A stretch of DNA of 64,000 nucleotides. Source: Strigamia acuminata (Eukaryota; Arthropoda; Chilopoda; Geophilomorpha; Linotaeniidae). The translations under genes were made by a program, and so were the position numbers. Within the stretch, counting starts at the first letter, position 1; the number at the start of each line of letters is the position of its first letter. The stretch covers positions 57,421,369-57,485,368 of the forward strand of contig OX442314.1 of the NCBI GenBank assembly GCA_949358305.1, given 5' to 3'. Positions 9,329-58,502 of this stretch are shown here, one piece after another. A model generated the notes under the pieces. It did not search any database and was not told the origin of the DNA. It saw nothing but the letters and a program-made list of their open reading frames with translations.

Positions 9329-9960
9329 TGTGACCAGCTGTTCACTCAGCCTGTGTCACTTCACTGCAACACACGGCGCTTCCAAGCTCTCGCGCACCTC
9401 GTGTGTTTCTCGTGCGCGACCTGGCGCGGTCCCCCGCACCAGGTGGAGCTGTCGGTCGTTGGTCCGGCAAATTGGGAACTGGAAGTGCCCCTTCCGGAAG
9501 TGGTGGGCCCTGCAGTAGCCCGAGAGTTGATTCTTGACCAGCATGGCGAACGGTCGCTTTCCGACCCTCTTCCCAATGCTGATCACAAGAGAGACCAGAA
9601 TGACCGACGCAGCAATGCTGTCGCCGGTCGGGACCTGAGCGTCCAACACGCCGTGTTCGCCGCACGTTCCTAAAGAACGTTGCGACGACGCGGCACAAAC
9701 TGCATTCACCAACCTCGCTTGTCATGGCGATCTACCGATTGCCGTGACACGTGGTCAAATCAGGAATGGCGGCAAAACCGCCATTACACTTGGGAAATAC
9801 ACCTTGAGACACCATATCATACTCCTAGACAACAATAAAGCAATAACCAAAACCTAAACTTGTGTCTTTTGTGTATTTCGTGGGATTTATCATCGTGTGT
9901 GTTGCGTCCAGCGCCTCGTGGTCCTCCCCAGACCACGTGGCGTTCGTCCAAACACTCACA
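9329..9960 (+). repeat. 5' LTR of element C
   Basis: Runs from TGTGACCAGC to ACTCACA. It contains a polyadenylation signal AATAAA at 9834-9839. The copy at 17760-18389 differs at about 16-17 positions. ORFs across it on both strands are GC-rich shadows with no family resemblance. Confidence 0.9.
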
Positions 9961-12175: not shown

Positions 12176-13796
12176 ATGCCATACACCAGATCAGGCAAGA
12201 AAACGGTGGAGTCACCGGCGATTAAATTCGTTACAACAGAAGAAGATTCCGACGTCGATTCAAACAATTCACCCCTGAATTTAACAATCGAAGAAGAAAT
12301 GGAAAATAAAGGTAACAAACCGTTGGACCAAGCAATGCTTGAGACGACATGTCAAATTTTCGATCTGAAAATCGAGAATATAACCACGTACGCCGTATAG
12401 GAAAGCGCGCTGCTTGCAGTGGCCAACCATACAGTGGAAATCAAGCACGAAGCTGATGTTTTAAAGCAACAATCAGTCTAATTTAACGCGGAAAATGACG
12501 ACCTAACCAGCCGTCTTAAAGAAGCGGAGATTGCAATTCGTTCGCATCTGTGATCGATAAAAACCTTGTCAGACCTGTTGACCCAACAGAAGTCTGTCAT
12601 GGACAACGTGACAGCGGCGGGCCAAGCAATGGTCGAAGCCGACAGAGTGGCAAACGCTGCAAAAACAGCTGTCGCACACGCATTCAAACACGCCAGTAAT
12701 TGTGAACGGCAATACGCAAAACGTAACGCCACCAACAATTACTGCAGATCCGACGTTTCTGGCCTGGGGTAATACCATCAGCCAGGAAGTGGACGAACCG
12801 TCAAATGATTTTAAACCCAAAGATGCGATTGATTTGGTAAAACATATCAACGCAATTGGAATGGAAGCTTTCCACGGAGAAAAGACAAAAGCCAAAGCTT
12901 TTCTCACTGACCTGAAGAAAGCTTTAAAATATGTCAATCCGTACATAAATCAGGTGCTTCAACACCACCTATTTAAATTCTTTAGAGGCGAAGCGGGAAC
13001 ATGGTTTTCGTCAGCTAATAAGGAATCATGGCAGAAATTCGAAAACGAATTCATAAGAAGATTTAAGCCAAGCGACACTGCGTTGCTGGCTGAAATTGAA
13101 AAGGTGAGACAAGCATCTTACGAGTCGGCCGCGGAGGTTGTCAACAGACTTGAGAAGCTGTACCAACAGCTTACTATACCGGTGCATGAAAGCCAGCAAA
13201 TTCGGAAAGTGCTGTCAATCCTGCGACCAGCAGCTAAAGATATGGCACGAGCAGCATTGCATGCTAATAACTCGTGGACATCACTAAAAAATGCTTGCGA
13301 AATCACCGAAGCCTCTGTCCTTAACGAGGATACGGTGATTCCAGCAACTCCCTTGGCGGGAAAGGCAGAAACTGTTTTCCCACCAAAACAAACTCCACAG
13401 CAATTGGTAGCAACTGCGACCATCACTGCTGCAGAGAAGACTAAACCATTTGTTCCTTTTGGGATGAGAAATCTCAATAACCGAACATTATTTCCCGCAC
13501 CAAAAAACGCTGCTGTAGCAGCAACCAAAGGCGCGGAGAATACCGAACGTTCGCTAGTTCCCAGCAATAAGCTGAAGGACTATGCAAACAAGCCACGAGT
13601 CGGCGGTTGCTGGAGATGTGGAGGCCCTCATTTTGAGCGACAATGTCCTCATAAAGAAGAATCCGCCAAAGCAACCATCGAGTTGATCGAGGCAACCAAA
13701 CTTCACCTGGCACAACAAATGTTTATGGCCAGTGAATTTAGTTGGAACTCGGTGACGGGAAACGAGGAGCCGCAGTCGGAGGAGACTTCAGAGTAA
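12176..13796 (+). pseudogene. gag: gag of element C, interrupted
   Basis: Starts MPYTRSGKKT at ATG 12176 and is broken by TAG 12398-12400, TAA 12479-12481 and TGA 12551-12553. A frame change near 12700-12770 leads into the frame that then stays open to 13796. The capsid-like part lies at about 12950-13330 (YINQVLQHHLFKFFRGEAGTW and RRFKPSDTALLAEIEK). A zinc knuckle GCWRCGGPHFERQC near 13606-13650 has three residues instead of four between the second Cys and His, an unusual spacing. The end overlaps pol in the -1 frame. Confidence 0.85.
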
Positions 13797-13808
13797 TTGA
13801 CGACTGCG
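13757..13808 (+). promoter_or_regulatory. Gag-pol -1 frameshift signal of element C
   Basis: Canonical heptamer G GGA AAC at 13757-13763, in the gag frame. After a 7-nt spacer, CGCAGTCG (13771-13778) pairs perfectly with CGACTGCG (13801-13808). The gag stop is within the 22-nt loop. The pol frame is open across the heptamer. Confidence 0.83.
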
Positions 13809-16800
13809 CCCTTTCAACAATTCTGATCCCTTCGAAGGAAGACATCTATGATTCTCTGTTTGATGATGTGTCATCAGAGAAACCAAATCCATGCATTGTT
13901 TTCTCGTCAAAACCAGAAACTGACCAAGTCAATGTTGCATTGAAAAAAGGAAAAAGCGTTTCACCAATGCCCTACCTCAAGACAACTTTGAATGGTATTA
14001 AAACAACCACTCTGATGGACACTGGGGCAACTCATAAATACATCAGTGGTGGAATGCTAAAGAAATTGGGCCTTCTCAGGTACATGACTCCATTTCTAGG
14101 AAATAGAGTTGTGCAAACTGGTGATCGACCAACTCGTCCAACGGGAACCATCACTATACCATTTAAATGGCGAGGTGGTGAATTCCCAGAAACATTTACA
14201 GTACTTCCATCAGCTTCTGAATTTATTGTATTGGGCTGTTCATGGATTGTAAAACATGAAGTTGTTCTTAACTTAAAAAAGCGAGAATACTTTCATATCG
14301 ACTTTCCGACTGAAACTTTTCCTTTTGATGTTCTCCCATCAGCGGAAGATTTTGGGAATGCTGTAAGCTTAATTGAACAATGGGAAGCTTTGATTGCAGA
14401 ATCGAAAGAATCTGCAGTTGATACATTGACTTTGGAGGAGCAACTCTTATCCAAAAGTCACTTATCAGCAAAACAAAGATTTCAAATCACAGCTCTTGTG
14501 AACAAGCACAGACATGTGTTTAGTAGCAAAGCTGGCTGTCACCCCACATTGGAACATCCAATTCCAACGGGTGATGCACCAGCATTTCGATGCAAAGACC
14601 GACCTATGGATCCGAAAAAAGCAGAGCTTTACCGAGAATTGGTCGCGGAACTGTTGAGAGATGGTTGGGCTGAACCATGCGAAGAAAGCTATAAAAACCC
14701 TCCTGTGATTGTTGCCAAAAAAGACGGTGGATATCGCCTGTGCATCGATTTTTGCTGGTTAAACAAGATTACAATAAAAGATGTCTATCAAATGCCATCA
14801 ATTTCAATGATCTTGGCTTGCTTGGGTGGGAAAAAATTCTTTTCCACATTAGATCTAACCAAAGGTTATTATCAAATCAAGCTCAAACCAAGTGATAAAA
14901 TAAAAACCGCTTTCTCTACTTCTGACGGAACATACCAGTTCACTCGTATGCCCTTTGGGTTATGTAATACACCAAGTGCATTTCAGAGAATGATGGATAA
15001 AGTTCTTGGCACTGCTCAGTACAAATAGGCCTTAGCCTATTTGGATGACATTATCATTTTTAGTGATTCTTTTGAAGAACACTTGCAACATTTGGACGAC
15101 ATCTTGTCCAAACTAGATAAAAGTAAATTGACGGCTAGTCCATCAAAATCATTTCTTTGTCCAGAAAACTTACATTTTCTTGGATTTACAATGAACCAAG
15201 GGAATTACAGCCCAAACGGTGATAAAGTGGTAGCCATCGTTAAATATCCGACACCTTCCAGTATAAAACAGCTTCAGCGTTTTATTGGAATGGTGGGATT
15301 TTACGCTGCATTAATTCCAAACTTGAGTATAACTCAGAAACCATTTTTCGCACTTTTAAAGAAAGATGTGAAGTGGAAATGGACAGAAGAGTGCAATAAC
15401 GCATTCGAGATTCTAAAAAAGCAGCTTGCAGAAGGAATTATGCTGCCTTTGCCCGATTTTTCCCGCAACTTTACCATCCATGCAGATGCAAGTGGCGGCG
15501 GGCTTGGTGCAGTCCTTATGCAAATTGACGATCATGGGGCTCTTAGACCTGTTGCTTACGTTAGCAGAACACTGCAAAGCGCAGAGAACAACTATAGCGC
15601 CACTGACTTGGAATGTTTAGCTGTGGTTTGGGCTGTAGAAAAGTTCAGGCCATATATTGAATATTTCGAATATGAAGTTGAGACTGATCATCGTGCTCTG
15701 AAATTTCTGATGACGATGGAAAATCCAACTGGAAGATTAGCAAGATGGGCAATGAAATTACAAAACGAAAATTTCACCATTAAATACAGGAAAGGCACCG
15801 ACAACGAAGTTGCAGATGCTTTATCCAGAGTCTCCCTCGATAATGTTAACCCATTAGAGGAAACAAGGACATTGGAAGAAATCACAGAGACTAATGCTCT
15901 TACATTTCTATCTTACGAAGTCGATGATTCCATGTCTTTTGAAAACATCACTTTAGAGCAAAAGAAAGACAAACATTTGTTCCTTTTGATGGAATGGTTG
16001 GAATTGGACGAGGAACAACCTCGCCCAGTACTACCTAAATTTCTAGAAGACAGACAATATGATTGTACACTCACAAGAAAAGGTATGCTTATTATATATG
16101 CACCTTTTAAGTCAGATCTCTTTGCTGAGGAGTCAGATTTAGGAACGGGTTTTAAAATATTTGTTTTTTCATCTTTCAGATTGGCAGCACTTCAATTAGT
16201 TCATGACCACCCAATGGCTGGTCATGGGGGAATTGAGGCGACATTGGAAAGACTGAAAAGAATCTACTTCTGGCCAAACATGCAAAAAGATGTAAAATTA
16301 CACGTGGCTAGCTGCGATCGCTGTCAACGTTGTAAACCAATTCAGAGGAAGCCAAAAGGACTTACAAGTTATGATCCCGACTTCCCCAAAAATTGGACGT
16401 TTTGAAAAAGTAGGAATAGATTTGATAGGTCCATTGCCTCGAACTCAAAACAGAAATAGATTTATCCTAGTTGTGGTGGACTACGCCACAGGTTGGATGG
16501 AAGCTACACCGCTGAGATCAGCCAAAATGAATGCATTAGCACCCATTTTGAAGCGATTCTTTAGCGCTCATGGGTGCCCTCGGTTTATGCTGAGCGACAA
16601 TGGCCCCCAGTTCATTTCAGACGTTTATGAGAGACTTTGTGAAGATGCAGGAGTTGTTCCCATCAAAACAACTCCTTACCATCCACAAACTAACCTCACT
16701 GAGCGCGTGAATAGAAATATTAAAATCAAGCTTCGAATTTTCACATTTGAACATGACCAATTACGACAATTGGCTGATTACCAACGACACACAAACGCCA

Positions 16801-17369
16801 TCGCTGATACCACATCGAAGGCAACAGCAACAATCACGAGCGAGACAGCCAAGACTGTTTCGCCAAAAGTAAAGCGGACGGAGAAAACTCCGGAAGAACT
16901 GAAAGGGGTTTGGAGTCAAATATTGCCTGCCCCATTTTTTTCTTTGCCGTTGACAGCTTCGACCGAAGCTGGAACCATCGCAAACTCGTTCGTTTTTCCT
17001 ACGGCAAGCGCACCGCTGCAACCAGCAAGCGAACTGTTCGCCACCGCACCGGAAACATCAACAGCCATCGAGATGCCACCAATATCCGGCGACATCCTGA
17101 CAGATCTTGTTTTCGGCGGTGAGACCGAAGTCACGCCGATGATCATCGAGGATGCAGACACGACGGTCCAAACTCCAAAAGCCGAGGAAGATATCACGTC
17201 GAATCCAAAGCCGAAATCAAAGTCCATCGCCAAAAAGAATCGGGATAAAAGAGCGCGCCACCACCAGACGAAAACGAACCGAGATCTGGCGGAGAAGATG
17301 TCGCCAATTTGCCAAGAAGAGGCGGATCAACTCGACGAATTGCCAGTGACACCGGGAAAGTCGTTGTAA
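13757..17369 (+). pseudogene. pol: pol of element C, with one nonsense codon and one frameshift
   Basis: Order: protease (LMDTGATHKYI, about 14015), RT (KDGGYRLCIDF; FSTLDLTKGYYQI; MPFGLCNTPSAFQ), TAG at 15026-15028 where related elements have Trp before ALAYLDDIIIF, then RNase H (HADASGGGLGAV, TDHRALKFL, VADALSR). The integrase zinc motif ends in CDRCQRCKP. A frameshift near 16380-16395, at a run of C and A, moves into the frame that carries the integrase core: D in GIDLIGPLP, D in LSDNGPQF, E in LTERVNR. Soon after (about 16750) the protein switches to a Thr/Pro/Lys-rich stretch unlike an integrase C-terminus. This suggests an internal deletion that joined integrase to the tail of a third ORF ending at 17369. 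Confidence 0.88.
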
Positions 17370-17759: not shown

Positions 17760-18389
17760 TGTGACCAGCTGTTCACTCACCCTGTGTCACTTCACTGCAA
17801 CACACGGCGCTTCCAAGCTCTCGCGCACCTCGTGTGTTTCTCGTGCGCGACCTGGCGCGGTCCTCCGCACCAGGTGGAGCTGTCGGTCGTTGGTCCGGCC
17901 AATTGGGAACCGGAAGTGCCCCTTCCGGAAGTGGTGGGCCCCGCAGTAGCCCGAGAGTTGATTCTTGACCAGCATGGCGAACGGTCGCTTTCCGACCCTC
18001 TTCCCAATGCTGATCACAAGAGAGACCCGAATGACCGACGCAGCAATGCTGTCGCCGGTCGGGACTTGAGCGTCCAACACTCCGTGTTCGCCGCACGTTC
18101 CTAAAGAACGTTGCGACGACGCGGCACAAACTGCATTCACCGACCTCGCGTCATGGCGATCTACCGATTGCCGTGACACGTGGTCAAATCAGGAATAGCG
18201 GCAAAACCGCCATTACACTTGGGAAATACACCTTGAGACACCATATCATACCCTTAGACAACAATAAAGCAATAACCAAAACCTAAACTTGTGTCTTTTG
18301 TGTATTTCGTGGGATTTATCATCGTGTGTGTTGCGTCCAGCGCCCCGTGGTCCTCCCCAGACCACGTGGCATCCGTCCGAACACTCACA
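17760..18389 (+). repeat. 3' LTR of element C
   Basis: Starts TGTGACCAGC directly after the polypurine tract and ends ACTCACA; it is near-identical to 9329-9960. Downstream DNA begins GTTTATG and belongs to a different context. Confidence 0.9.
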
Positions 18390-19978: not shown

Positions 19979-20612
19979 TAAAGGTGGGTTCACACTTGGA
20001 AGTAAAGTAAGGTAAAGTAAAGTAAGCTCAGATAAAGTAGAAGTAAGGTAACGCAAGTGTGTTCACACTTGTTTTGAGTTGAAGTAAAAATGAACCAATC
20101 ACAATGTAATGCCAAGATCTCAATCCAGAACAAGATATATTTTGAACTTTGAAAATAATTATGATGAATCAGATTTAGAGGACTTGTTTCTAAATTTTTA
20201 TTTATTTTATTTATGTTTTTTTTTCTACCTCCCTGCGCGCTTCGTCAAAGCGATGTTTGGTTGCATTCAATTGCACAAATGCGGCCGATGTTCGGCCGCA
20301 TTTGCGCGATTGAATACGGCCGATGGTCCGCCACATTTGTGCGATCGATTGCGGCCGATGTTCCGCCACATTCGCGCGATCGAATGCGGCCGAACATCGC
20401 CCGCATTTGTGCAATTGAATGCGGGCAAACATCGCCCGCATTTGTGCATTGAATACGGGCGATGTTTGGCGAACATTTCGCAAAAACGTCGCGAATAACG
20501 AATAAAAATACCTTGCGAAAACGTCGCGAACACGGCGCAAATAACGAATAATGACACGTCGCGAATATTTCGCGAAAACATTGCAAAACCGTCGCGAATA
20601 ACGAATAAAAAC
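19979..20612. mobile_element. Left half of a small DNA transposon, split by element 2
   Basis: Starts with TA followed by AAGGTGGGTTCACACTTG (from 19981). The inverse complement, AAGTGTGAACCAACCTT followed by TA, ends the right half at 33465. The 19-bp inverted ends differ at one position. With element 2 removed, the transposon would be about 880 bp with no transposase, so it is probably non-autonomous. The flanking TA suggests a TA-targeting superfamily. Confidence 0.65.
20278..20480. repeat. 35-bp satellite array, about six units
   Basis: Units start at 20278, 20313, 20348, 20383, 20418 (34 bp) and 20452 (partial). Several units hold a palindrome: TGCGGCCGA/TCGGCCGCA in the first and ATGCGGGC/GCCCGCAT in the fifth, so the arms changed together. 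A second set of related units with CGTCGCGAATAACGAATAA follows to 20610. Protein-like ORFs over this region are products of the repeat. Confidence 0.8.
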
Positions 20613-21678
20613 TGTGGTGACCTCAAATATTCGTATCTGAGTGCCCACCATATTTCCAAATTGTCTTATGAACATATCAAACATTCCTATATGTTTTGTT
20701 CCAATGTAAATTGAAATAAAACATACATTAATAAAATATAAAAACAAGGCACAATATTACCCAAATAATATTGTGTTTCGCAGCAAGTTTTGGCCCAGCA
20801 ACAGCGTCAACCAATCACGTTGCAGCGTGCATTGCTTTGATGATGCTGCTAGGCGTGTGCCTGGGCGGAGCATCCCTTCCCCTCGCGCGTGCCCGACTCA
20901 ATTGTTGCACACGACCCGAAAGCGGCCGTGTGTGATCTCTGTGCAACTCGTCATCTGCGCAGCTTTTCTGAGCAGATTTAGAAGTGAGCCAAACGGTTTT
21001 GGCCCACTCTTCCCGCATTCTTGATTCTGCTTCCAAACCATTCACATCTGTGTCAAACTTATGCCAACCATTGCTAAGTGTGATCTGTGATATCTGGAAG
21101 AGTTGAGATTCATTGCTGGTCCGTGCCAACTGTACGGAATAGCGCCCTTCTGCTTGAATTACTACGCGTAATTTAAGCCATTTCTGTGTGTGAATTGACA
21201 TTGAGCTTGCTCTGTTAATTTGAAGGCTTTGTGTCGAGTTTAACTCCACAAAGCAATTTGTGTAAAGACCGATTGTTACGTCGAGCTTGCTCCGTAATAA
21301 TCGAATCGCTGTGTGCAAGACGTATTCTCGTGTCGAGCGTGCTCCACGAGGATTTTTAGTATATTCAGCAACGTATTTTAGCGTCGAGTTTACTCCGCTA
21401 AAATCCCGCGCTCACACGACGCCGTCGACGCCATCTTGGAGCCAACGGTCAACTGTGAGTGTATATTTGAAGAAGAAGCCAGATCGACCCCAAACATTTT
21501 GAATAATACCTCCTTTGTATTTTGAACAATTAAAGCTATTTAATTTTTCCTTTACTCTGTGTAAAATCATTCCCCTAGACAAACATTTGGCCACAGAGTA
21601 GAAGTCCTGTACGGCATCTCTACGACGATTGCTTATTGAATTTATATAATTTAATAAGTAAAAACCCGGATCGCCGCA
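20613..21678 (+). repeat. 5' LTR of element 2 (1066 bp)
   Basis: Runs TGTGGTGACC to CGCCGCA. It includes AATAAA-like (about 20710) and ATTAAA-like (about 21528) signals and an array of hairpins described separately. A 167-codon ORF on the opposite strand (20815-21318) has no recognisable domain and runs across the hairpins, so I do not treat it as a gene. Confidence 0.94.
21120..21404 (+). other. Array of covarying hairpins in the element 2 LTR
   Basis: Five hairpins share a plan: outer stem, 2-nt 5' bulge (TC or TT), inner stem GAG(C/T) with (G/A)CTC, and a 2-3 nt loop. They lie at 21193-21220, 21226-21254, 21271-21302, 21324-21353 and 21375-21404. Outer stems are 8-10 bp and all different: AATTGACA/TGTTAATT, GCTTTGTG/CACAAAGC, GATTGTTACG/CGTAATAATC, ATTCTCGTG/CACGAGGAT, ATTTTAGCG/CGCTAAAAT. 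Two more hairpins precede them: TCCGT/ACGGA at 21120-21138 and GCTTGAATTAC/GTAATTTAAGC at 21152-21178. The array is duplicated in the 3' LTR (+11540). Its place late in the LTR suggests it is transcribed, but the start site is unknown. Confidence 0.8.
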
Positions 21679-21680
21679 CT

Positions 21681-21698
21681 TGGGGGCCTGGCCGGGAT
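21681..21698 (+). other. Primer-binding site of element 2, tRNA-Pro type
   Basis: TGGGGGCCTGGCCGGGAT, two bases after the LTR, matches the tRNA-Pro site at 15 of 18 positions. Confidence 0.75.
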
Positions 21699-21770
21699 AG
21701 TTTTGATTGTTAAAATCCGATTTTTGCAAAAAGATCCTTTATTTCCATTGTTCTTTTTCAATTTGACAAA

Positions 21771-24671
21771 ATGGCGACGCCAATGCAAATTGTAAAACGA
21801 CAGCGAGGTCGACCAAGCACTCAGAAACGAGCAGCGACGGTTTTGCCGGCTCTCGAGCCTGAAATGCTTATGGAAAAAATTATTTCTGAAGAAATAACAC
21901 CAGTTCCAGATCCGAATCAACTTAAGGATGCTGAAAATGAAGTTGCTCGAGCCCTAAGCGCATCAAGTGCGAGTTCTAACGAACAAGAACTCCCGCCACT
22001 TCCACTGGAGGAAGTGGAAAATACGTTACGTGAAATGGAAAGTGAATCGTCTCACGAATCACCTCCTCGCATGACCATGTTGGATGCTTTGAGAAATCAA
22101 GCACGCCAGGATGGCGCCCAAATAACGGACGACATGACGGTGGAAGAGATTCATCGCGCCATGATACGACTTCACACTGACCGCGCCGTTTCAGATTTAA
22201 AATTTGAAATGGAACGGAAAGAAGCCGAGCTTCAACAACAAAAAGCGGAGGTTGAGCTCCAACACATGGAACTCAATCGACAAAATGAGGAATTTCTAGC
22301 CCAAAAAGCTAGAGAATACAGACTAAAAGGTGAAGTGGAAGATCTTTCTAAAATGAATGTTAGAAATGAACTTTCAATTCGCTCACACCAAGAGGCGCGA
22401 AAACAACTCGAACTTACCAAAAGTAAGTTAGAGCTGAAAAATAAAGAATTGATTGATTTGGCAGATCACTACCAACGCAATCATAATCAATTAGTAAGAT
22501 ATGCTGCTGAATTAGACACCCGTGCTAAAACACAGCGTACTCGCGAAAGTCGAATAGCTAGGCGAGAAGACGAGATTTTCCACTCGCTGGATCAACCCAG
22601 TACGAGCGGACAAGTCAAGTTTAGCAACCCTGCTGACCAATCACCACCCGTAGAAGCGGACAATCAACTAAGAAAGAATGAAATTCTCAGAGCTGATTTG
22701 TTACGCGCTCAAGAAGAGCTTGCAGAAATGAAAGATCGTTTGCAAGCAAGAAATTATACTGAACAAATGGTACGACCTGAATTAGTGGCACCAACTGTTC
22801 CTATTTTGACTCCCGAAACAATAACAATTTCTGTTGTTTCTGAGTTAAGTAGCCAATCTGGATTATCGAGTGATGACGACCAACGTTCGCGTCGCCGCCA
22901 TCGCTCAAAAAGAAAACGTCCTTCAGATTCCGAGGAACGGAGAGCTGATCGCAATCCGCTCCCAGGTAATCGAAATCCTATTTTTCACAACAGTGATCGA
23001 CTGTTAGGAATGGTAGACGACCGAAATAGGCAACATGAAACTGGTGTTCATGCTGCCAGAACGATACCGATTGCTGCGCAACAACAAGACTCGTCGAAAA
23101 GAAGTCGACGAGACACGAATCCAGCACGCGAACCACCCGACGGACATGAAAGCCCGCCAGGTGGGGGTCAGTATAGGAGAAATCCACCAGATGGAGGAAA
23201 TCCAGATGGACATGGAGATGGACCACCTGGAGGTGGACGCCGACCGCCAGACGATGGTGACGGCGACCCACCCGACCCACCTGAAACGCCACATTTCAAC
23301 ACGCCTTCAAATTCACAATCTGATTCAAGGTCGGATTCTGATGTGAATGCGCAACAAGAACGCGATAATCGACATCGATCTCATCGACGTCGACATCGAG
23401 GCCATTCTTCTCGGCGTAATACACATTATTACACTGCTGAAGAAATTGATCGATTATTAGCTGATCGTCGATCTGCTGATCGATCTGACGCTACTGCCGA
23501 TAATGCTGACATCGCATTACGACAGAAAATTGCACAATACACTGCCAACAACTGGACTCACGATCTAGTTGATGAAAGAACTATTAGATGGGATCACATT
23601 AAACCCGCTTTATTCGATGGAGAATGGGAAGCTGGATCCACTCTTTTAGATGAAGTTTTACGAATTTCAAGGTTGAATGGCATTGCATGTCACACTGCTT
23701 TGAAAAGAGTAGTACCAAAAGCTCTTATAGACCGAGCTGAGAAATGGTTTTATTCTAAACAATTTCAAAATTGGAACCACTTTGTAGAGGAATTTATGAC
23801 TGAATATGGAGAGTCAAGTGAAGACTTACTACAAATGTGGGATAATCTTTCTCAAAATAAAGGCGAAAGTCTTCGCTCTTATTTAAGAAGGACTGAAGAT
23901 TTATTGGTAACTCTCCCTTATACGATGGGAGACGCAGCCATTGATCGTCAATTCCGTCAAGGATTGACAGATTATTCAAAAAATGTTCTACTGTCAGTAC
24001 GAGCACCTTATCCGGGTGGTTTCGCTGAATTAGCCAAATTTATGCGAGCCAATCAGATAAGGATTGACGAAAATTACAAAGCTTACTTACCAGCTGATGA
24101 AAAGGTTGCGTACGCTAAGCGACAGCAAAGGAGAAAGGAATTGGCAAAAGACACACGTTTTGCTAATACCCCTCTTTTGCAACCCCCAAAACGAGGAGAT
24201 TTTTTGGCAGAGACTGCTAAGGAATCTAAAAAGGGATCGGATGGGAAAAATCCACATCCAACCCCTAAAGCTCACTTAGCCGAAGTGACAGAAATGGAAA
24301 CTGCTTCTGAACCAGAGAAATCTGACTCGGAACCAGAAAGTGAGGCTGCAGCTGCTTTATTAGCCCGTAATAACGCAGTAGCTCGAAAATTTGGACCAAA
24401 GATGGCGCCTAAAAACGTTACTTTTGGTTCACCAAAGACAGACGCGCTCAGTAGATCGAAGTCGCCGACCACTAAAAAGGACGAAGCCAAACGTTCAAGT
24501 TCGCCTTCGCCAAAAGTCGCTAAATCGCCCGCTACTGATCCATGTAACATCTGCAAAAAATTGGGACATTGGGCTAAAGAATGTCCTGATAGGAAAACGA
24601 GCAAAGACAAGATTTTGGAAGAGTTCGAAAAATCGATGAAATCAATCGGCGAACTTCTAAAAAACTTGTAA
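21771..24671 (+). CDS. gag: Gag polyprotein of element 2
   Basis: 966 residues from ATG 21771. The N-terminus KRQRGRPSTQKR carries an RGRP core flanked by basic residues, as in AT-hooks (minor-groove DNA binding; family knowledge). A Glu/Gln/Lys-rich coiled-coil region follows (about 125-270), then basic Ser/Arg segments and a Gly/Pro/Asp-rich linker (about 450-520). The capsid-like region is at about 590-780 (NNWTHDLVDERTIRWDHIKP and GESSEDLLQMWDNLSQNKGE). The zinc knuckle is CNICKKLGHWAKEC (about 924-937). The frame is uninterrupted. It ends LLKNL at the slippery site. Confidence 0.93.
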   Translation: MATPMQIVKRQRGRPSTQKRAATVLPALEPEMLMEKIISEEITPVPDPNQLKDAENEVARALSASSASSNEQELPPLPLEEVENTLREMESESSHESPPRMTMLDALRNQARQDGAQITDDMTVEEIHRAMIRLHTDRAVSDLKFEMERKEAELQQQKAEVELQHMELNRQNEEFLAQKAREYRLKGEVEDLSKMNVRNELSIRSHQEARKQLELTKSKLELKNKELIDLADHYQRNHNQLVRYAAELDTRAKTQRTRESRIARREDEIFHSLDQPSTSGQVKFSNPADQSPPVEADNQLRKNEILRADLLRAQEELAEMKDRLQARNYTEQMVRPELVAPTVPILTPETITISVVSELSSQSGLSSDDDQRSRRRHRSKRKRPSDSEERRADRNPLPGNRNPIFHNSDRLLGMVDDRNRQHETGVHAARTIPIAAQQQDSSKRSRRDTNPAREPPDGHESPPGGGQYRRNPPDGGNPDGHGDGPPGGGRRPPDDGDGDPPDPPETPHFNTPSNSQSDSRSDSDVNAQQERDNRHRSHRRRHRGHSSRRNTHYYTAEEIDRLLADRRSADRSDATADNADIALRQKIAQYTANNWTHDLVDERTIRWDHIKPALFDGEWEAGSTLLDEVLRISRLNGIACHTALKRVVPKALIDRAEKWFYSKQFQNWNHFVEEFMTEYGESSEDLLQMWDNLSQNKGESLRSYLRRTEDLLVTLPYTMGDAAIDRQFRQGLTDYSKNVLLSVRAPYPGGFAELAKFMRANQIRIDENYKAYLPADEKVAYAKRQQRRKELAKDTRFANTPLLQPPKRGDFLAETAKESKKGSDGKNPHPTPKAHLAEVTEMETASEPEKSDSEPESEAAAALLARNNAVARKFGPKMAPKNVTFGSPKTDALSRSKSPTTKKDEAKRSSSPSPKVAKSPATDPCNICKKLGHWAKECPDRKTSKDKILEEFEKSMKSIGELLKNL

Positions 24672-24700
24672 GCGCGCATCCAGACGGTCTAGTGGATGCG
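24659..24700 (+). promoter_or_regulatory. Gag-pol -1 frameshift signal of element 2
   Basis: A AAA AAC at 24659-24665 in the gag frame, two codons before the gag stop. Nine nt later CGCATCCA (24675-24682) pairs perfectly with TGGATGCG (24693-24700) across a 10-nt loop GACGGTCTAG. Element 3 has the same arrangement with a different stem and a shared GGTCTAG in the loop. Confidence 0.85.
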
Positions 24701-27700
24701 ACGCCTAACGCCTCGGAAAACGAACTAACACCATCTCAGATTTTAGATGAATTTTTAAATACTCAGATTAAACTAGAAATTGAAAATAATTTGCAATTTC
24801 CAAAAATTGATGTTTCCAGTTTAAAGCTTGTGCTGCAAAATGAAAACATCACTGAAGAATTTTTTAAAGAAAAAGTTCAACAATTAAAAGTTGATTGGGA
24901 ATCTAAAATGAAAGATGCTGTTACTTTACTAGATGAAAAAACTAGGCCAACACCTGAAATCATTGAAAGGTCAGATAAAATTGATTTACCTGGTCTTGAT
25001 GAATGTATTGAAAAATTAATGGCTACAACGCTAGTCACTAATGATTTATTGGACGAATTACCATTGGATCCGCCGATAGAAATTAAACCACCGCGACGTT
25101 TTAAATGCAAGTATGCGGACATACCAAACAGCAATGATTTGCCGACGATTCGATTGCAGACGGCAAACGGTATGATAACAGGGATGTTAGACTCTGGAGC
25201 TAATCGAAGCTTCATGGCCTACTCCGTAGTAATTTCGCTGAAACTGGAAGATGAAATTCGACCAATTGGACCGGATGTGAGAGTTACGACTGCTTCAGAA
25301 GATGTAGTCCCTGAAGGAACTCTCCTACTTTCTTTTGCGTAGACACACGAGATGTTAAGTCATCCATTCATAATTTTAAGAAATAAATATCCTATTATTT
25401 TATTAGGATGTGATTTCATGAATCGACTCAATATTCAACCAAATCCTAAGACCATGTCTTGGAATTTTGTCAAGTCTTTGAAAGAAGATTTACCTTTTGT
25501 TCCTCAAGCAATTCTTGATCGTTATCAAGAGTTCCTTGATCCACCCGAAGAAATCATGAAAAGCGACTTTATTAAAGTAAATCACATGAAAGCTGGTTCC
25601 GCCACTGCATGTCAAGCTAAAGTTGCCGATGAAGAAAATATAGTACAAAGACTTGTTAGCGACGCTAATTTGTCAATGGAAAATAATTTAATGCTTGAAA
25701 AAGTATTAAAGAAACATGAAAAGATTTTATCACGCCGACCAGGTAGAACACACCTCGTTAGGCATGAAATTAAACTGGACACTAAAGTTCCAATTTGAGT
25801 TCCGTTTAAAAGCGTAAATCCACAGAAACGTGAAATTATCCGTCAAATCTGTCAAGATATGTTGGATAATGGGTACGTTGAACAAGCCACTGGAGACTAT
25901 GGGATGCGAATAGTTCTAGTGATGCGTCCGGATTGTGATCCGAGACTCTGCATTGATTTTAGACCACTCAATGCACATACATTATACGACCCTCCTCAAA
26001 TGCCCAGCATTGAGGAAATCTTGCGAGAACTCGGAAGATTTGAATGGGTCACAACGATAGATTTGTCAAAAGGCTATTGGCAGATAGAGGTTCATCCGAA
26101 CGACCGTGCTAAAACTGCGTTTTGGAGCCCTTTGGGTCGACTACAATTTCGAGTCATGCCCTTTGGCCTCGTAAATGCGCCGTCAACTTTTCAAAAGTTG
26201 ATAGAAAAAATTTTGGGGGACGCCTATCGAAAATTCGCATGGGCATACCTCGATGATATAATTATTATATCAAAAAATTTTGAAGAACACATGATTCATC
26301 TGGAAGAAATTCTGAGTAAACTTGAAAATGCAAATCTTCATGTTCATCCAGAAAAATCGAAATTTGGCAGAAAAGAATTAACTTTTCTTGGCTACAAGTT
26401 AAGTGTTCACGGAGTTAGTGTCGACCCTAAAAAAGTCGCCGCCATTAAAGAAATGCCAGCTCCTTCAAATTTGAAAGAGTTGCAAAGATTTTTGGGAATG
26501 GTGAACTTTTTTCACCGATTACTCAAGAATCTAGCAGTCATGACAGAACCTCTACGTCCTTTACTCAAAAAGGATGTGGAATTTATTTGGTCGGAAATTC
26601 ATCAAGAAGCTTTTGATCAAATAAAAGATGCTTTAACAAATGCAGAAACAATGGCCATGCCTGATTTGACAGAACCATTTATTGTGCATACCAACGCTAG
26701 CAGGAAAGGACTAGGCGCCGCGCTTATGCAAATGAGGGAAATCGATGATCAAAATATCGAAGTGCCTTGTGTTTATGCCAGCAGAAGTTTGCAACCTGCT
26801 GAGATAAATTACAGCGCCACAGAATTAGAATGCCTTGCGGTAATCTGGGCATTACGTAAATTTCGACATTATCTGGAATTTACCACATTCATAGTTAGGA
26901 CTGACCATCAAGCACTAAAATGGTTGATGCAGTTAGACGAACCTGCCGGAAGGTTAGCGCGTTGGCAAATGGAGCTGATGCGCTACTCTTTCGAAATACA
27001 ATATATTAAAGGTCCACTAAATGTTTTAGCGGATGCTTTATCCAGATCACCGATTGATAAACCGGAAAATCCTGAAGATGATGGAGATAATGACGAATTA
27101 TTATCTTATTGTCCATCACCACAACGAAATTGGAAAATGGGAAAATTCCATGAGCTTCCTGTCTCCACATTAGAGGAAAAGGAAGATCACGAATTCGTCA
27201 ACTATTGGACTAAAATTTATGACCCCTCTGAAGAATCAGATGACGGCATAAGAGCGCAAATTTCAAGGAAATTTCAAATTCCTTCGTCAAATGTTTTAAT
27301 AAAAGCATTTGTCGCCAAAATTGTAGAGCGTCTTGATTGTGAACCCCCTACAAGGGAAGACATAATCAAGGCCCAAAAAGAAGATAAAATTTGCCAATTA
27401 ATGCGTAATTTTTTAAACTATAATCAATTTCCGCCTGACGTCACAACGCGACTCCAGAGGAAACAATATAGAAAACACGCAACCACCTTCTTAATTGAAG
27501 ATGACTTATTAATGCAATTTCATCCCACAATGTCTGATGAATTGGGGGAGGATGGGAGAGCACTCAAAGTTTTTGTACCTCAGACATTGAAGTATAAAAT
27601 TATTTGGCTAATGCATGGCCACCCACTTTCTGGCCACCCAGGAATTGCAAGGACTCTTTATTGAGCACGCCGAATTTATACCTGGAAAGGCATGAAATCG

Positions 27701-29140
27701 GACATTACGAGATTCATTCGACATTGCGAGCGTTGTCAAGCTTGCAAACCTCGAACGAAAGGACAAATTGAAGCAGCGCAAATGGGTCCTTACAGCCCAT
27801 TTGACTGTCTAAGTGTTGATTTGACCGGCCCGAAACCTCGGACGCGCAAAAACAACACACATATTTTAGTCATACTTGACGTGGCAACTCATTGGCCAGA
27901 ATTATATCCAATGTGTAACCCCACTGCCGGAAAAGTAGCAAATTGCATTTATCACCTTTCCATGAGCATGGGATTCCCTCGTAAAATTATTTCTGACAAC
28001 GGCCCGCAATTTCGTGCCCAAGTCTTTAAAAAATTTTGTGAAAAGTTCAAGATGGTTCCAACACCAACTTCAACGTATCACCCACAAGCTAACCCGGTTG
28101 AAAGGGTTAACCGTGACATCAAATATTTGGTTGCAATTTATTCATCTGTTCATTCCAAATGGGACGAATATTTGCGTGAATTTGCATTTAGTTTGAGAAC
28201 TACGGTGACGAGAGGAAGAGACTTCTCTCCCGCATTTCTTAACTTTTTTCGCGAACTCAGAGTACCTTGGGATCCAAGAATACCTGAAGGAATTTTGGTC
28301 GTAGATCCAAAAAACCCACATTTATACGTGCAAAAATTAGAAGCCGTTATCGCCGAAACATATCAGCACATGATGTCGCACGTGTTAGATTTGCGTAGAC
28401 GAGTTAATCTTAAAAATGAAGGTGAGAAGTTCTCCAATTTTAAATTAAACGATTTAGTTTGGAGAGATTCTCATGTTTTGTCGAGCGCTGCCCGCGGCAT
28501 TGCAGCTGGCATCGCTGATAAAAGAACAGGACCTTATGTAATAACCAAAGTATTACAGGGAGGTTCGGTAGAATTGAGAAAGCTAGAGAATAACGAAATA
28601 TTTCCAGCTGTCCATTCGTCTGAATTAACTCCGTATTTCCCGAGTTTCGACCAGGAAGTATGGTTAGAAGGCGAAGAAGTCGGTCAAAAGACTGAAAATA
28701 TAATTAATACGTTAGATGACGATGAATTAAAGAAAATACCTATCGATAATTCATCCAAACCACAAATGGAGTCAGACCTCGTGAATAACGACGTTGAGCT
28801 TCGTGACAGTTTCAAAAAACTTGAAATTGCTAAAAAATTAAATAAAAAGGTGTTTTTAGAAAAGAAACAAAAAACATCTGAAATAAAAGACTCATCTGAC
28901 TCAGTCTCCGATGACAATGAAGACGGCGATTTAAATACAATAAATCCCTCGCCGACAAAGAGATATAATCTTCGGACTCGTAAACCGAGAGGAAAAAACA
29001 ACATGTGTCTTCTCCCCTCGATAACCTCGAGATCCAGGGATCAGCCGTATGACGTAAGGAGCAATTCCTCAAGCCATACTCAAACCAATCAAACAGTAAG
29101 ATTGGATGACGTCACTAACAGCGACGTTACCCAAACGTAA
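24659..29140 (+). pseudogene. pol: pol of element 2, one frame with three nonsense codons
   Basis: Protease (MLDSGANRSFM, about 25190), RT (MPFGLVNAPSTFQ, AYLDD), RNase H, integrase with an HHCC zinc motif (HGHPLSGHPG to CERCQACKP), DDE core (D in SVDLTGPKP, D in ISDNGPQF, E in NPVERVNRD) and a GPY module (RTGPYVITK). Stops are TAG 25340-25342 (Trp in element 3), TGA 25796-25798 and TGA 27662-27664 (both Arg in element 3). The first RNase H aspartate is Asn (HTNAS, codon 26693-26695). All four changes are G-to-A or C-to-T, three in a CpG context. The rest of the frame is well kept, so inactivation was recent. Confidence 0.92.
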
Positions 29141-29264
29141 CTTCCGGTATTTGAACTGATCACTTCGCGTCTGAGTTCACTTCGATCTCACACGTGTGCT
29201 AAGTGCTCATCCCCAAAAAACCAAAAGCGAAACAACTGGATTATTTCAACGGGATTCTTCAATT

Positions 29265-29342
29265 GTAAGTAGTTTTTTCTTTGGAATTTTCCAAGGAAAA
29301 ACTAATAAATTAATTTTCGTTTTTCTTTTCCATTTGGATTAG
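29265..29342 (+). other. Predicted leader intron upstream of ORF3, element 2
   Basis: Consensus donor GTAAGT at 29265 and a pyrimidine-rich acceptor ending AG at 29341-29342, 8 nt before the ORF3 ATG. Element 3 has the same arrangement, which supports a spliced ORF3 mRNA. The acceptor may in practice pair with a donor further 5'. Confidence 0.5.
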
Positions 29343-29350
29343 TCGTTCAA

Positions 29351-31978
29351 ATGGAAGGAGAGGAACCGAAAGAAGGAAGCGAAGCCGGCGCCAACAGCCT
29401 CGAATTAGAAACAAATTCGACGCTGCTGGGTTCCGCAAATACTTCGAACACATCTGTGGATGTCACCGAAGAGTCCGCCGAAGCGTCCGCCGAAGCTCAA
29501 GCCGCTCTGGCCGACGCTGCTGCCTGTTTGCCAGTCACGCCGCCCCAGCCCCGACTACGAGGAGGCCTATTCGCCGATCCAAACGGCGAAACTCGTGCAC
29601 AGAGACACGACCGGGTAAATAATTTAAAATAAAATTACCTTTCAGTCATGAAAAGTAATTAAAAGTGCATTTTCACTCAGAAAAAGCGAAAAGTTCGTTG
29701 GTAACGCCTTCGCAAGAAGGCGCCGCCATTATTATCATCAGATGGCGCTGTGTCTCGTTTTTGAGGCGTTGCTACGGTAACGCTCCAACATTGAAACATA
29801 GCCGTCGGAAACAACGTTTTTCACGATTTTTCAAATATTTTGAAAAATTTAACGAATCTAAACCGTCGAATGAAATCTCGCCCGTGATTTTATTCACTGA
29901 AAATTCGGAAATAATTATCTTACACGAAAAAATGGATTTTAATTATTTCTTCGAATATTTTACAGATCATCCAGCTTCGGGAGACGCATCTCGAACTGCA
30001 CCCCGATGTTCCGACAGCTCCTGGTGTCTGGCGACACGCTTTGCCACCGGAGATCATAAAGTCTAAAGGACGATTGACGTTTTGGGCGGCCCGCCACAAA
30101 TTCTCCAAAGCTTTAAACAAGCGATGGGGAACGAAGTTTCGGATCGCCTATTTAATCGATGGATTCGGTCATCGCGACGCCCTCGAGTGGGCAATGAAGC
30201 GCGACACCTTCGGACCGACATGCCAATCGGAGATGCATCAACTAGCCATGGGCGGATGTTTCCATGCTGATTTCGTGCCAAACCCGTATCCAGAGCCCGA
30301 GCCCCGGGTACAGGTCGCTTCCACCATCCACGTGGTGCCACCGCGCTCCACGTCGAGGTCACGATCATCGAGGTCGCCCTACAGTAGCCGTCGCTCCTCC
30401 CCAACACAGTCGTCGGGGGAAGGCGCCATTGGAGGGTTACCTCCACTCCAGAAGGCTCGTCATCGCTCACATCACCGACGCGAGTCGACGCCGCCAAAAA
30501 GACATTCGAAGTCCGTGTCGAGACCCACATGCCGAAGCCGACCTCGAGTGCAATCGCGCCAATCTTCCACGAGGAGTTCACTCTCGTCGCGTGAAGAAAG
30601 GTCCAACGCTTCACAGCTTAGCGCTTCCTCCTCCGGCCGGATTGACTGGTCGGACGAGATAGCGAAAGAAGATCGACGCATCGCCGCATTGCAAGCCGGT
30701 CAAGGAGACGTCAACACCTCTTTGCCGTTCGCTTGCCGTCCAGTCACCAGCGACATGCGACCAGACCCATCGGTGCCCGTGCCACAAGTGACATCGGTCA
30801 TCCGTTTTGAGGGATACGTCTCTCAAGAACCATTTCCCGCACAGGAGTGCGCTGATCTCTGGAGGCGATTCTCATCGTTTCCCGAGACAGCCCAAACGAT
30901 GTACCTCGCGCATCTGGACGAATACCAGCTCGCTCAGATCCGCGAAGGTGAGAAGGAATGGCAATGGCTTGCCAGAGAGCTTGCGTCGTGCAAGTCCGAC
31001 AAGCAACTGCAACGGACGCTGCAGAGGATGAACAGGAAATTGTCGGAGGGACTTCTTCGAATCCTGTTCCAAGGAGTCTTTCCCGACCCACAGATTGCTC
31101 TGGCGGCCGCCACTCGATTGTGGACCGTGCCGTTAGGGCTTCCACGAGCTTTGCTGGACGATTGGGAGTCAGTTCGCCCCGATCCTCCAACGATGCTCGC
31201 CGAATTGACGCAACAAGCCGAGGCGACTGGCGAAACTCCGGCTGGATCCGCCATTCGACTACGGCAGGAATGGGCTACGCTGAAGCAGCGACGCGCGGCG
31301 GAACGTGCTACCGCCCGTCCCGCTGGCGCACCACCGTCATCCGCAGCTCCACTCCACGCTGCTATCACGGCAACGTCGAGTGTTTCCCGTGCAACCGAGG
31401 CACCGAGTTGCGACATCTCGTCTCCAATGGAGTGGCTCGACAGCGACGATCGCGAGTTCGTCGTGCCTGTGGCCAGCGGTGCCAGACCAAAGACGCGCAC
31501 CCCGGCTTCGCGCAGATCCAGATCCCTCTCGATCTGCAAGAAGTCGCCGCCACCGCCGCCTCCTCCAAAGGATTCGCCGCCGAGAGATAGGGGATCGAAA
31601 ATGGCCACCTACCTCACCGCCTATCAACGTTTGCGCTCTTTATACGCTTTTTGCTACATAACGAGCGCGACGAAAACGATTCTCCAGAACAGCGAGGATT
31701 TATGCAACCGAGTCCTCGCGTGGCTGGAGAACCACATCAAAGAACAACAGCCGTGGATCCTGCATCAACGCCTGGTGTTCGCCCGAATTACGCCTCAAGA
31801 CCCGCAGGAGTATTTCGAGATGGGTTTTGGACGAAGGGATGGTGTGGACCGCATCAAGCAAGTGTGGCTCCACATCAACCCTGGCTTCCGGTCAGGACCA
31901 AACGCCGGCCGACCTTTGTGCACCGTCACAGAGCACAAAGATCCAAACGATCATTCGACGGACATGTTGCCTAAATAA
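29351..31978 (+). CDS. Third ORF of element 2 (spliced, about 758 aa, unknown function)
   Basis: Exon 1 is 29351-29614 (88 codons, acidic, Ala/Glu-rich); the predicted intron is 29615-29965 (GTAAAT...TTTACAG, phase 0, with an in-frame stop); exon 2 is 29966-31978. Joining them gives a segment similar to the uninterrupted ORF3 of element 3, for example ALPPEIIKSK against ALPEKIRRLK and ARHKFSKAL against LRHDFSKSAL. After this domain come a Ser/Arg-rich stretch (RSTSRSRSSRSPYSSRRSS), a helical middle (PAQECADLWRRFSSFPETAQ), a polyproline run and a C-terminal domain starting MATYLTAYQRLRSLYAFCYI. I see no signal peptide or membrane anchor, so it is not an obvious Env. Function unknown; nucleic-acid or RNP binding is a guess from the SR region. 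Confidence 0.75.
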
Positions 31979-32138
31979 TTAGGGAACATACCCGTCCATT
32001 AAAAATAATTACTTTTTTATTTTTTATATTGTAATAAAAAAGAATAAATATATATCCTGTTCCATTTTACTTTGAAACCTTGTGTATTTATTCCTATACT
32101 TACCTGTCTCTTTTTGGAAAAGAATAAGATTCTTTCTT

Positions 32139-32152
32139 AAAAGGGGGGGAAG
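32139..32152 (+). other. Polypurine tract of element 2
   Basis: AAAAGGGGGGGAAG directly abuts the 3' LTR and is the expected plus-strand primer. Only AT-rich 3' untranslated DNA lies between ORF3 and the tract. Confidence 0.88.
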
Positions 32153-33218
32153 TGTGGTGACCTCAAATATTCGTATCTGAGTGCCCACCATATTTCCAAA
32201 TTGTCTTATGAACATATCAAACATTCCTATATGTTTTGTTCCAATGTAAATTGAAATAAAACATACATTAATAAAATATAAAAACAAGGCACAATATTAC
32301 TCAAATAATATTGTGTTTCGCAGCAAGTTTTGGCCCAGCAACAGCGTCAACCAATCACGTTGCAGCGTGCATTGCTTTGATGATGCTGCTAGGCGTGTGC
32401 CTGGGCGGAGCATCCCTTCCCCTCGCGCGTGCCCGACTCAATTGTTGCACACGACCCGAAGGCGGCCGTGTGTGATCTCTGTGCAACTCGTCATCTGCGC
32501 AGCTTTTCTGAGCAGATTTAGAAGTGAGCCAAACGGTTTTAGCCCACTCTTCCCGCATTCTTGATTCTGCTTCCAAACCATTCACATCTGTGTCAAACTT
32601 ATGCCAACCATTGCTAAGTGTGATCTGTGATATCTGGAAGAGTTGAGATTCATTGCTGGTCCGTGCCAACTGTACGGAATAGCGCCCTTCTGCTTGAATT
32701 ACTACGCGTAATTTAAGCCATTTCTGTGTGTGAATTGACATTGAGCTTGCTCTGTTAATTTGAAGGCTTTGTGTCGAGTTTAACTCCACAAAGCAATTTG
32801 TGTAAAGACCGATTGTTACGTCGAGCTTGCTCCGTAATAATCGAATCGCTGTGTGCAAGACGTATTCTCGTGTCGAGCGTGCTCCACGAGGATTTTTAGT
32901 ATATTCAGCAACGTATTTTAGCGTCGAGTTTACTCCGCTAAAATCCCGCGCTCACACGACGCCGTCGACGCCATCTTGGAGCCAACGGTCAACTGTGAGT
33001 GTATATTTGAAGAAGAAGCCAGATCGACCCCAAACATTTTGAATAATACCTCCTTTGTATTTTGAACAATTAAAGCTATCTAATTTTTCCTTTACTCTGT
33101 GTAAAATCATTCCCCTAGACAAACATTTGGCCACAGAGTAGAAGTCCTGTACGGCATCTCTACGACGATTGCTTATTGAATTTATATAATTTAATAAGTA
33201 AAAACCCGGATCGCCGCA
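32153..33218 (+). repeat. 3' LTR of element 2 (1066 bp)
   Basis: Same length as the 5' LTR, with about four transitions. It carries the same hairpin array at 32733-32944. It is followed by the target duplication AAAC. Confidence 0.94.
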
Positions 33219-33222
33219 AAAC

Positions 33223-54361: not shown

Positions 54362-55333
54362 TGTGGTGATCTCAAAATACTTCACCAACTTAGAAGATAA
54401 AATTAATTGTCTTCTAATTAATTTGACTGTGGCACACGCCAAGTCAGATCATGTGACCGAGGGGAGAAATCCTCTCTAGGCACATATCACCCCAGGTTGT
54501 CCGGGGTGAAAACGGTTATTAGCCGTTATGGTGCAATATGGTGTAATAACCACTAGTTGCACCCATTTGAGCTAAGTGCGCAGGTTTTCTGCGCAATATT
54601 GAAGCGTGCTGGGCTCGCGCCTTGGCTCAAATTGGGACTCTGAAAAATACAACAACAACCTCAACATCACTGCTTTTGCTCCTGAAAGAAAAGTATTGAT
54701 AGAGGACCGTTGTAACTCAGTTTCACCTGCTATCTTTGTGTCACCCAAAGCACAAAGCCAGCAATTCAGCTTGAATTAGCCGTCGCTAATTCCAGCTATC
54801 GAGAAGTAGAAGTTTCCCGAAGTGACGTGAACCATCGCCGTCGCAGCAGCGCGAACTGTTGCCACCGCCATCGAACGCCAGTCGGACGCCCGTGACCGTG
54901 AACCACCGCCAGCGAGCCGTCGTACGAGTTACGGAAGAAACCCACGAGAACCATCGTCTTCGATCATCGTTCGTGAGTTTACAGAACGAAGACAATTTGC
55001 CTTCGCCTAACAACTGTGTGTTGTTTAAGCGCCATTTTAGCGCTTTGTAGCTTGCAACAGTCGTTGCAAGCCCTTCCATTGTTTCCGCTCATTTCATTTC
55101 GCGACTTGTCGCATTTTGTGATATTTCTAATCATTTTAAACTAGTCATTGTAATTAAAACCGAATAAATACATATTTGTGATTTTTATTGATAAAACTGT
55201 CTTTTTATTTCTTTTCCTTAAACTTAACCCCTAGATAATTTAAGGCCGCCGATTGTAAGTCTTTTATAGCATTCACCTGCGGTTTCTGCTTAATTTACTA
55301 GAAATTAAGTGGATAAAAACCCGGATCGCAGCA
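54362..55333 (+). repeat. 5' LTR of element 3 (972 bp) with hairpin array
   Basis: TGTGGTGATC to GCAGCA; same family as the solo LTR at 37257-38221. Hairpins lie at 54488-54508 (CACCCC/GGGGTG), 54511-54527, 54577-54595 (TGCGCAG/CTGCGCA), 54734-54757 (CTTTGTG/CACAAAG), 54773-54792 (GAATTAGC/GCTAATTC), 55027-55045 (AAGCGC/GCGCTT) and 55050-55071 (GCTTGCAAC/GTTGCAAGC). The solo LTR keeps these stems, with changed loops or paired changes at some. Confidence 0.92.
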
Positions 55334-55335
55334 CG

Positions 55336-58468: not shown

Positions 58469-58502
58469 ACGCAGATCCATCAGGTCTAGTGGACGCTGCG
58501 TC
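58456..58502 (+). promoter_or_regulatory. Gag-pol -1 frameshift signal of element 3
   Basis: A AAA AAC at 58456-58462 in the gag frame. After a 5-nt spacer GACGCAG (58468-58474) pairs with CTGCGTC (58496-58502) and, inside, CCA (58477-58479) with TGG (58490-58492). The 10-nt loop TCAGGTCTAG resembles that of element 2, while the stems differ. Confidence 0.86.

Follow-up and report, generated by a model that had tools for sequence, protein, structure and literature searches.

A tandem array of compensated hairpins with a TAR-like core in the LTRs of a Ty3/gypsy-type retrotransposon of Strigamia acuminata

The stretch of DNA analyzed here (the window; 64,000 nucleotides of Strigamia acuminata assembly GCA_949358305.1, 57.42-57.49 Mb of contig C1) carries a Ty3/gypsy-type LTR retrotransposon of 12.6 kb at positions 20613-33218, which is the host of the hairpin array described below. 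Its assignment follows from the presence of LTRs, a primer-binding site, a polypurine tract, gag, and an RT/RNase H domain located 5' of the integrase; the two LTRs are 99.5% identical, and the element is flanked by a 4-bp duplication, AAAC, at 20609-20612 and 33219-33222. The features of the element are as follows.

20613..21678, + strand: 5' LTR of 1066 bp (TGTGGTGACC...GCCGCA), placed by its TG..CA ends, the flanking duplication and the primer-binding site
21681..21698, + strand: primer-binding site (TGGGGGCC...), 2 nt past the LTR, tRNA-Pro type by resemblance only
21771..24671, + strand: gag ORF, with Retrotrans_gag and a zinc knuckle
25859..29140, + strand: pol, with an RT/RNase H ORF (25859-27664) and an integrase ORF (27692-29140)
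30041..31978, + strand: ORF3, in the env position 3' of pol, basic and Arg/Ser rich
32153..33218, + strand: 3' LTR, with the polypurine tract directly 5' of it

The RT/RNase H and integrase ORFs share one frame and are separated by a stop in the window copy. RT matches were 34-48% identical among the 120 matches listed of 2547, and no Gag homologue was found among 7993 candidates at an E value of ≤0.001. The pattern of the primer site occurs 911 times in the genome (237.5 Mb), and a tRNA gene turned up at none of the ten matches that were sampled. A 35-bp tandem repeat, rich in palindromes, lies directly 5' of the 5' LTR (20245-20460). Elsewhere in the window, a 97% identical direct repeat without the hairpin core (9329-9960 and 17760-18389) may represent the LTRs of a third element around the ORFs at 12702-17369, and a 48-bp tandem repeat at 41010-41249 overlaps long open frames.

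A second Ty3/gypsy-type element, element B, extends from 54362 to beyond 64000 and is approximately 72% identical to the first in pol DNA. Its LTR folds strongly and is devoid of the hairpin core. Inverted copies of LTR pieces were noted at 37257-38221.

About 54362-55334: LTR of element B
55445-58468: gag of element B
58489-61971: pol ORF of element B
63059-64000: env-position ORF of element B

A first-pass annotation, made from the sequence alone, had described five tandem hairpins in the LTR, each with a conserved inner stem, a 2-nt bulge on its 5' side and an outer stem that differed from copy to copy. The hairpins were found where that annotation had put them, at 21193-21404, and each folds alone as described.

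21193..21220, + strand: hairpin 1; outer stem of 8 bp with one G-U, bulge UU, core GAGC-UU-GCUC
21226..21254, + strand: hairpin 2; outer stem of 8 bp, bulge UC, core GAGU-UUA-ACUC with a 3-nt loop
21271..21302, + strand: hairpin 3; outer stem of 10 bp with one G-U, bulge UC, core GAGC-UU-GCUC
21324..21353, + strand: hairpin 4; outer stem of 9 bp with one U-G, bulge UC, core GAGC-GU-GCUC
21375..21404, + strand: hairpin 5; outer stem of 9 bp, bulge UC, core GAGU-UU-ACUC
32733..32944, + strand: second five-hairpin array, in the 3' LTR, 100% identical to the first over 212 nt
21115..21143, + strand: upstream hairpin a, without the shared core and with a G-A mismatch in its stem
21152..21178, + strand: upstream hairpin b, an 11-bp stem without the shared core

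The earlier description also held for the loops (2 nt each, 3 nt in hairpin 2), for the single G-U pair that hairpins 1, 3, and 4 each carry in the outer stem, and for the occurrence of the array in both LTRs. Folded singly, hairpins 1 to 5 gave -7.8, -13.1, -14.7, -12.3, and -10.2 kcal/mol, values reached by 1, 1, 0, 3, and 1 of 200 shuffles each, respectively. When the window was scanned for the bulge plus GAG..CTC plus at least five outer pairs, the 10 matches on the + strand were exactly the five hairpins of each LTR, with a single match on the - strand and a chance expectation, estimated from 20 mononucleotide shuffles, of 0.2 per strand per 64 kb; the array was found nowhere else in the window, LTR B included. 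A 321-nt region containing the array, folded whole as the first-pass annotation had proposed, was more stable than any of 100 shuffles (z = -5.35), and its minimum-energy structure contained hairpins 3-5 as drawn but not hairpins 1 and 2, of which the centroid structure included hairpin 2 and part of the stem of hairpin 1. Judged by sliding-window fold z-scores, the array does not stand out: scores equally low or lower were obtained for other LTRs and for further parts of its own LTR. At positions 20600-21800 there was no Rfam match above the gathering score, the one match up to an E value of 1 lying outside the array with 16.8 bits against a gathering score of 86, and a known Rfam element was accordingly rejected as the identity of the array.

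That the outer stems differ yet pair was borne out. The independence of five stems seems doubtful: hairpins 3-5 have linker words and an AUU..AAU stem base in common, and we read them as probable copies of one duplicated unit whose stems have diverged with compensation. Such common linker words, as read from the sequence, together with the relatedness of the genomic copies, are what would be expected if the array were a by-product of tandem duplication and shared ancestry, devoid of function, and the covariation analyses bear directly on that possibility. In an alignment of 37 arrays that covered seven hairpins (the five core hairpins and upstream hairpins a and b; 86 pairs), 99.5% of cells were paired and 19 of the 86 pairs showed double changes, and pairing fell to 33-43% when partners were slid by 1-3 columns. 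Upstream hairpins a and b contributed 97.8% and 99.8% paired cells, respectively, each with double changes in 2 of 11 pairs. Four of the five covariation measures were reached by none of 500 shuffles; the fifth, further pair types, stood at 38 against a shuffled mean of 36.0 and was reached by 28 of 500.

A larger set of 98 arrays was, like the 37, gathered by similarity, with stretches covering less than 180 nt left out and the stems unfiltered, and yielded 75 distinct rows in which the two LTRs of an element were counted apart where they differed; no two rows came from one place among the 73 checked. The five hairpins of these rows comprise 4349 Watson-Crick, 216 G-U, 18 A-C, and 25 other cells. 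We compared them with a tree-based null in which the changes of each column were dealt to random branches (300 runs). Varying cells were still paired at a frequency of 0.85 (null mean, 0.40; null maximum, 0.63), double-change cells numbered 160 (null maximum, 66), and 18 pairs had a double change (null maximum, 11), figures to be read with the knowledge that varying cells are roughly twice as frequent in the null (mean, 689) as they are in the data (338). In 37 tree events, a Watson-Crick pair gave way to A-C or to some other mismatch. Mean column identity was 0.94 in stems and 0.95 in the core, and it was lower in linkers, at 0.86. A further alignment, of 45 hairpins chosen from 88 that combined the core with 7 or more of 9 outer pairs, showed 96.6% pairing, partly by selection of its hairpins, and two of its five measures were reached by shuffles (132/500 and 7/500).

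The same pattern extends to diverged relatives. In five subfamilies (L039, L063, L064, L065, and L092), whose LTRs are approximately 70-77% identical where they can be aligned, the scan still picks out three to five hairpins, whose stems are new, and a covariance model run on four of the diverged subfamilies recovered four to five hairpins in each. Stems that decay uncompensated in homologous LTRs, the outcome that the first-pass annotation had named as speaking against its reading, were looked for and were not seen, and its proposal of selection for structure is confirmed by the covariation in 37 genomic arrays (shuffle null) and 75 genomic arrays (tree null). The stems thus differ by paired changes, both between hairpins and between copies, the linkers are less conserved than stems and core, and the tree-based null did not reach the data in 300 runs. 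We therefore consider a functionless by-product of duplication to be barely credible, barring a serious fault in the null; one source of such a fault could be recombination between copies, a process that occurs in LTR elements and that the null assumes to be absent.

The first-pass annotation had left a choice between RNA and cruciform structure. A G-U pair on the sense strand reads A-C on the opposite strand, and one-sided tree events away from Watson-Crick pairs, scored on the sense strand, comprised 52 to G-U and 17 to A-C; in cells, the counts were 114 and 19, against null means of 167 and 218. This excess of G-U over A-C favors a sense-strand RNA over a DNA cruciform, which we rejected. 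In the outer stems, 95 G-U and 12 A-C cells were counted after two pairs, for which G-U is the usual state in the 75 arrays, had been left out. No preference for G-U was apparent in the inner GAG/CUC pairs (2 changes to G-U, 5 to A-C, and 6 others), as befits a part that is read for its identity and not for pairing alone. The wider proposal that the array acts as DNA, either as a cruciform or as a protein-binding palindrome in a promoter or insulator, can draw on the palindromic GAGC..GCTC and on the location inside an LTR; a DNA structure does not predict the 52-to-17 bias or two pairs that are usually G-U, however, and a DNA-binding site would fix the sequence of outer stems that instead drift with compensation, so that we regard this proposal as very unlikely. 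We are highly confident that the structure exists and that it is selected as sense RNA, both points having good support.

Several sequence features bear on whether the array is transcribed.

20737-20744: TATA-like stretch, with another candidate transcription start downstream of it
21110..21115, + strand: initiator-like TCATTG, candidate transcription start
21529..21534, + strand: ATTAAA, possible polyadenylation signal, 3' of the array

Both candidate starts would place the array downstream of the start of transcription. The upstream half of the LTR cannot be aligned in L064 and L092, and only its first blocks can be aligned in L065, whereas in all three the part from about 21130-21173 to the primer-binding site is recognizable; such a pattern is to be expected if the array lies in R-U5. 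In other diverged copies of the same alignment the upstream half is preserved in part or in full, and L064, L065, and L092 could alternatively be nested or rearranged. From these features we infer that the array is located in the leader/R region of the RNA.

The array is confined to one family of elements in the material that we sampled. An extended core pattern was found 207 times genome-wide and once with the reversed control, and each of 40 further places, obtained with a pattern of the core and three outer pairs, proved to be the LTR of this element's family. Among ten places drawn from the 911 primer-site matches, the array was present in one, L108, which belongs to the same LTR family, and the core was found in none of the nine others; these represent perhaps five or six families, since L100 and L104, L101, L106, and L107, and in part L099 and L105 are alike. 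The idea that the array is a feature of all elements with such a primer site was therefore rejected, and its restriction to one family indicates that it answers no general need of such elements. The number of hairpins varies: L061 (G000:C1:8946100-8947900) has seven, hairpins 1 and 2 being doubled, and the inserted unit of this type was present in 20 of 24 genomic places examined, including six pairs about 11.8 kb apart, the spacing expected of two LTRs. Two other observations concern these surveys. A place with a core pair at C1:28384010 is not visibly of this LTR family. A single hairpin resembling upstream hairpin a (21115-21143) occurs about 550-750 nt before the PBS in L100, L101, L105, L106, L107, and LTR B; in the five sampled elements it is of the UCAG-GCC..GG-AUUGA type, and it is possibly near the RNA start. 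Our literature searches found no report of such a hairpin array in the sources consulted, which were seen in part, and descriptions of cis-acting RNA elements in animal LTR retrotransposons are, to our knowledge, scarce.

The constraint on the core is narrow. The first bulge base was U (T in the DNA) in 364 of 365 hairpins of the 75 arrays, whereas all four bases occur at the second, C and T by far the most commonly. The pairs directly above the bulge were G-C in 359 of 364 cells, A-U in 362 of 364, and G-C in 358 of 365, and the fourth core pair was, with a single exception among the cells, C-G or U-A. Loops are of 2 nt, except that hairpin 2 mostly has 3 nt, and the second loop base was U in every lettered row of hairpins 1, 3, 4, and 5; in the window copy, four hairpins have G-C as the pair below the bulge and the remaining one has A-U. 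In those parts of PMC11885821 that were consulted, HIV-1 TAR is described as having an essential U23, which forms a triple with A27-U38, a position 24 at which any base works, and a U25 that can be deleted, as in HIV-2; Tat binding is abolished by swapping G26-C39 or G28-C37 (PMC11885821). The array core resembles TAR of both viruses, as described there, in its 5' bulge beginning with U below G-C, A-U, and G-C and in its free second bulge base, and it resembles HIV-2 TAR in its 2-nt bulge. The parallel is exact for the positions of the bulge and three pairs, as a likeness of constraint and not as a binding result. Since the core module fits the arginine-fork site of TAR, its likeliest reader would be an arginine-rich protein; reading of the core by an arginine fork is nonetheless a specific proposal that we make tentatively and rate as somewhat doubtful.

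Narrowing the roles that the first-pass annotation had listed, we suggest that the array is a functional sense-strand RNA element, a multivalent platform for protein docking that is read probably through arginines, and we give this reading a probability of about 0.5; a protein-docking role of whatever kind we regard as likely. Each hairpin would present one recognition module, the U-first 5' bulge below G-C, A-U, and G-C, and the outer stems would serve only to hold this module up, as the pattern of constraint suggests, and would therefore be free to drift with compensation. Several modules in a row would provide avidity and cooperative loading, and the reader could be the Arg/Ser-rich ORF3 protein of the element, its Gag, or a host factor. 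With the array in the leader/R region, the bound protein would single out the genomic RNA in its unspliced form, whether for export from the nucleus, for activation, or for packaging. An Arg-rich segment of Gag, residues 372-383 (RSRRRHRSKRKR), was dropped as specific evidence because the Gag of element B is also Arg rich and the LTR of that element has no core.

The favored version, export of the genomic RNA mediated by ORF3, would depend on the properties of a protein that had no Pfam match and no homologue at an E value of ≤0.001 among 7993 candidates. ORF3 is under purifying selection, with a pN/pS ratio of 0.13 in its C-terminal two thirds (78 pairs from 13 distinct places), and 61 of 68 long genome matches, which were those scored of 1803 candidates and included the window's own, have no internal stop; the window copy is about 64 residues shorter than the other copies listed. 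Its net charge is +28, and it contains a long Arg/Ser-rich stretch that falls largely outside the part in which selection was tested. An identity as Env was rejected, since no membrane segment was found in the shorter window copy, where the highest 19-residue hydropathy was 1.09. A single comparison of ORF3 with its env-position counterpart in element B showed local similarity (E = 2e-5), which suggests common descent. ORF3 may have a role like that of CERV, the Cer1 protein discussed below, with the array as its target. In its strongest form, in which ORF3 loads cooperatively on a response element of five to seven hairpins with an arginine-fork core of the TAR type, such a scheme would amount to a convergent or ancient counterpart of the Tat-TAR and Rev-RRE circuits, and we think this form improbable.

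Two other functions compete with docking through arginines. The hairpins could form a packaging or dimerization signal, by which the nucleocapsid zinc knuckle of Gag selects genomic RNA without recourse to an arginine fork or a regulator. Retroviral leaders commonly contain hairpins to which nucleocapsid binds, a zinc knuckle is present in this Gag, and the conserved U at the second loop position could be read by it; a knuckle that reads the loop leaves unexplained why the bulge base and three pairs are kept as strictly as the loop base, and the array, if it lies in R, would be found at both ends of the RNA and probably on spliced RNA too. We view a packaging signal as unlikely, if a serious competitor. 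Alternatively, a host export or RNA-binding factor might bind the hairpins directly, as in a constitutive-transport-type element, with no need of an element protein. There are multiple copies of a bulged module, the env-position ORF presumably needs splicing, and an RNA structure of Mason-Pfizer monkey virus is described, in the sections of the source consulted, as binding NXF1/NXT1 directly (PMC10309623). The LTR has no Rfam match, however, and the core occurs in one element family only, though the problem of export is common to such elements, and direct recognition by a host factor appears to us rather improbable.

The array that we propose as a docking platform is small, its core is well delimited, and it exists in numerous natural variants; since the same element also encodes a candidate partner, binding and export are directly testable. 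If the core is read as TAR is, an arginine-fork site arose, or was kept, outside the lentiviruses; if the ORF3-array circuit is true, trans-acting RNA regulation of the retroviral style exists outside the retroviruses.

Among known systems, TAR is like the array in lying in the LTR, the array being probably in R, but the array differs in consisting of five to seven short hairpins and in belonging to a Ty3/gypsy-type element of an arthropod with no known Tat. The 6-nt apical loop of TAR, which binds cyclin T1, is not present in the array, whose loops are of 2-3 nt. HIV-2 TAR may fold as three stem-loops, according to the consulted part of PMC10970485. Also comparable are CERV and the Rev/RRE pair of lentiviruses. 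CERV, from the Cer1 element of Caenorhabditis elegans, is needed for export of genomic RNA, and the consulted sections of the paper do not name its RNA target and call the Cer1 primer site, TGGGGGCCG, tRNA-Pro (PMC10309623). As far as those sections describe it, Cer1 shares with our element a primer site of the TGGGGGCC type, positions 21681-21688 agreeing with TGGGGGCCG to the eighth base, and an ORF in the env position without known homologues; unlike CERV, ORF3 is Arg/Ser rich, and no cysteine-rich cluster was seen on reading it. A nematode host, to which the likeness to Cer1 had pointed, was rejected on the telomere-type repeats of the genome: TTAGG, the arthropod type, gave 18,915 overlapping hits (21 in the control), whereas TTAGGC gave 2, both at one place. 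The export element of Mason-Pfizer monkey virus, the constitutive transport element, is a structured retroelement RNA, as is the array, which possibly also serves export. Finally, errantiviruses are insect endogenous retroviruses with an Env, in which RT precedes integrase, the target duplication is of 4 bp, and a third ORF follows pol; our element resembles them in all three of these features and differs from them in an ORF3 that has neither a membrane segment nor a Pfam match.
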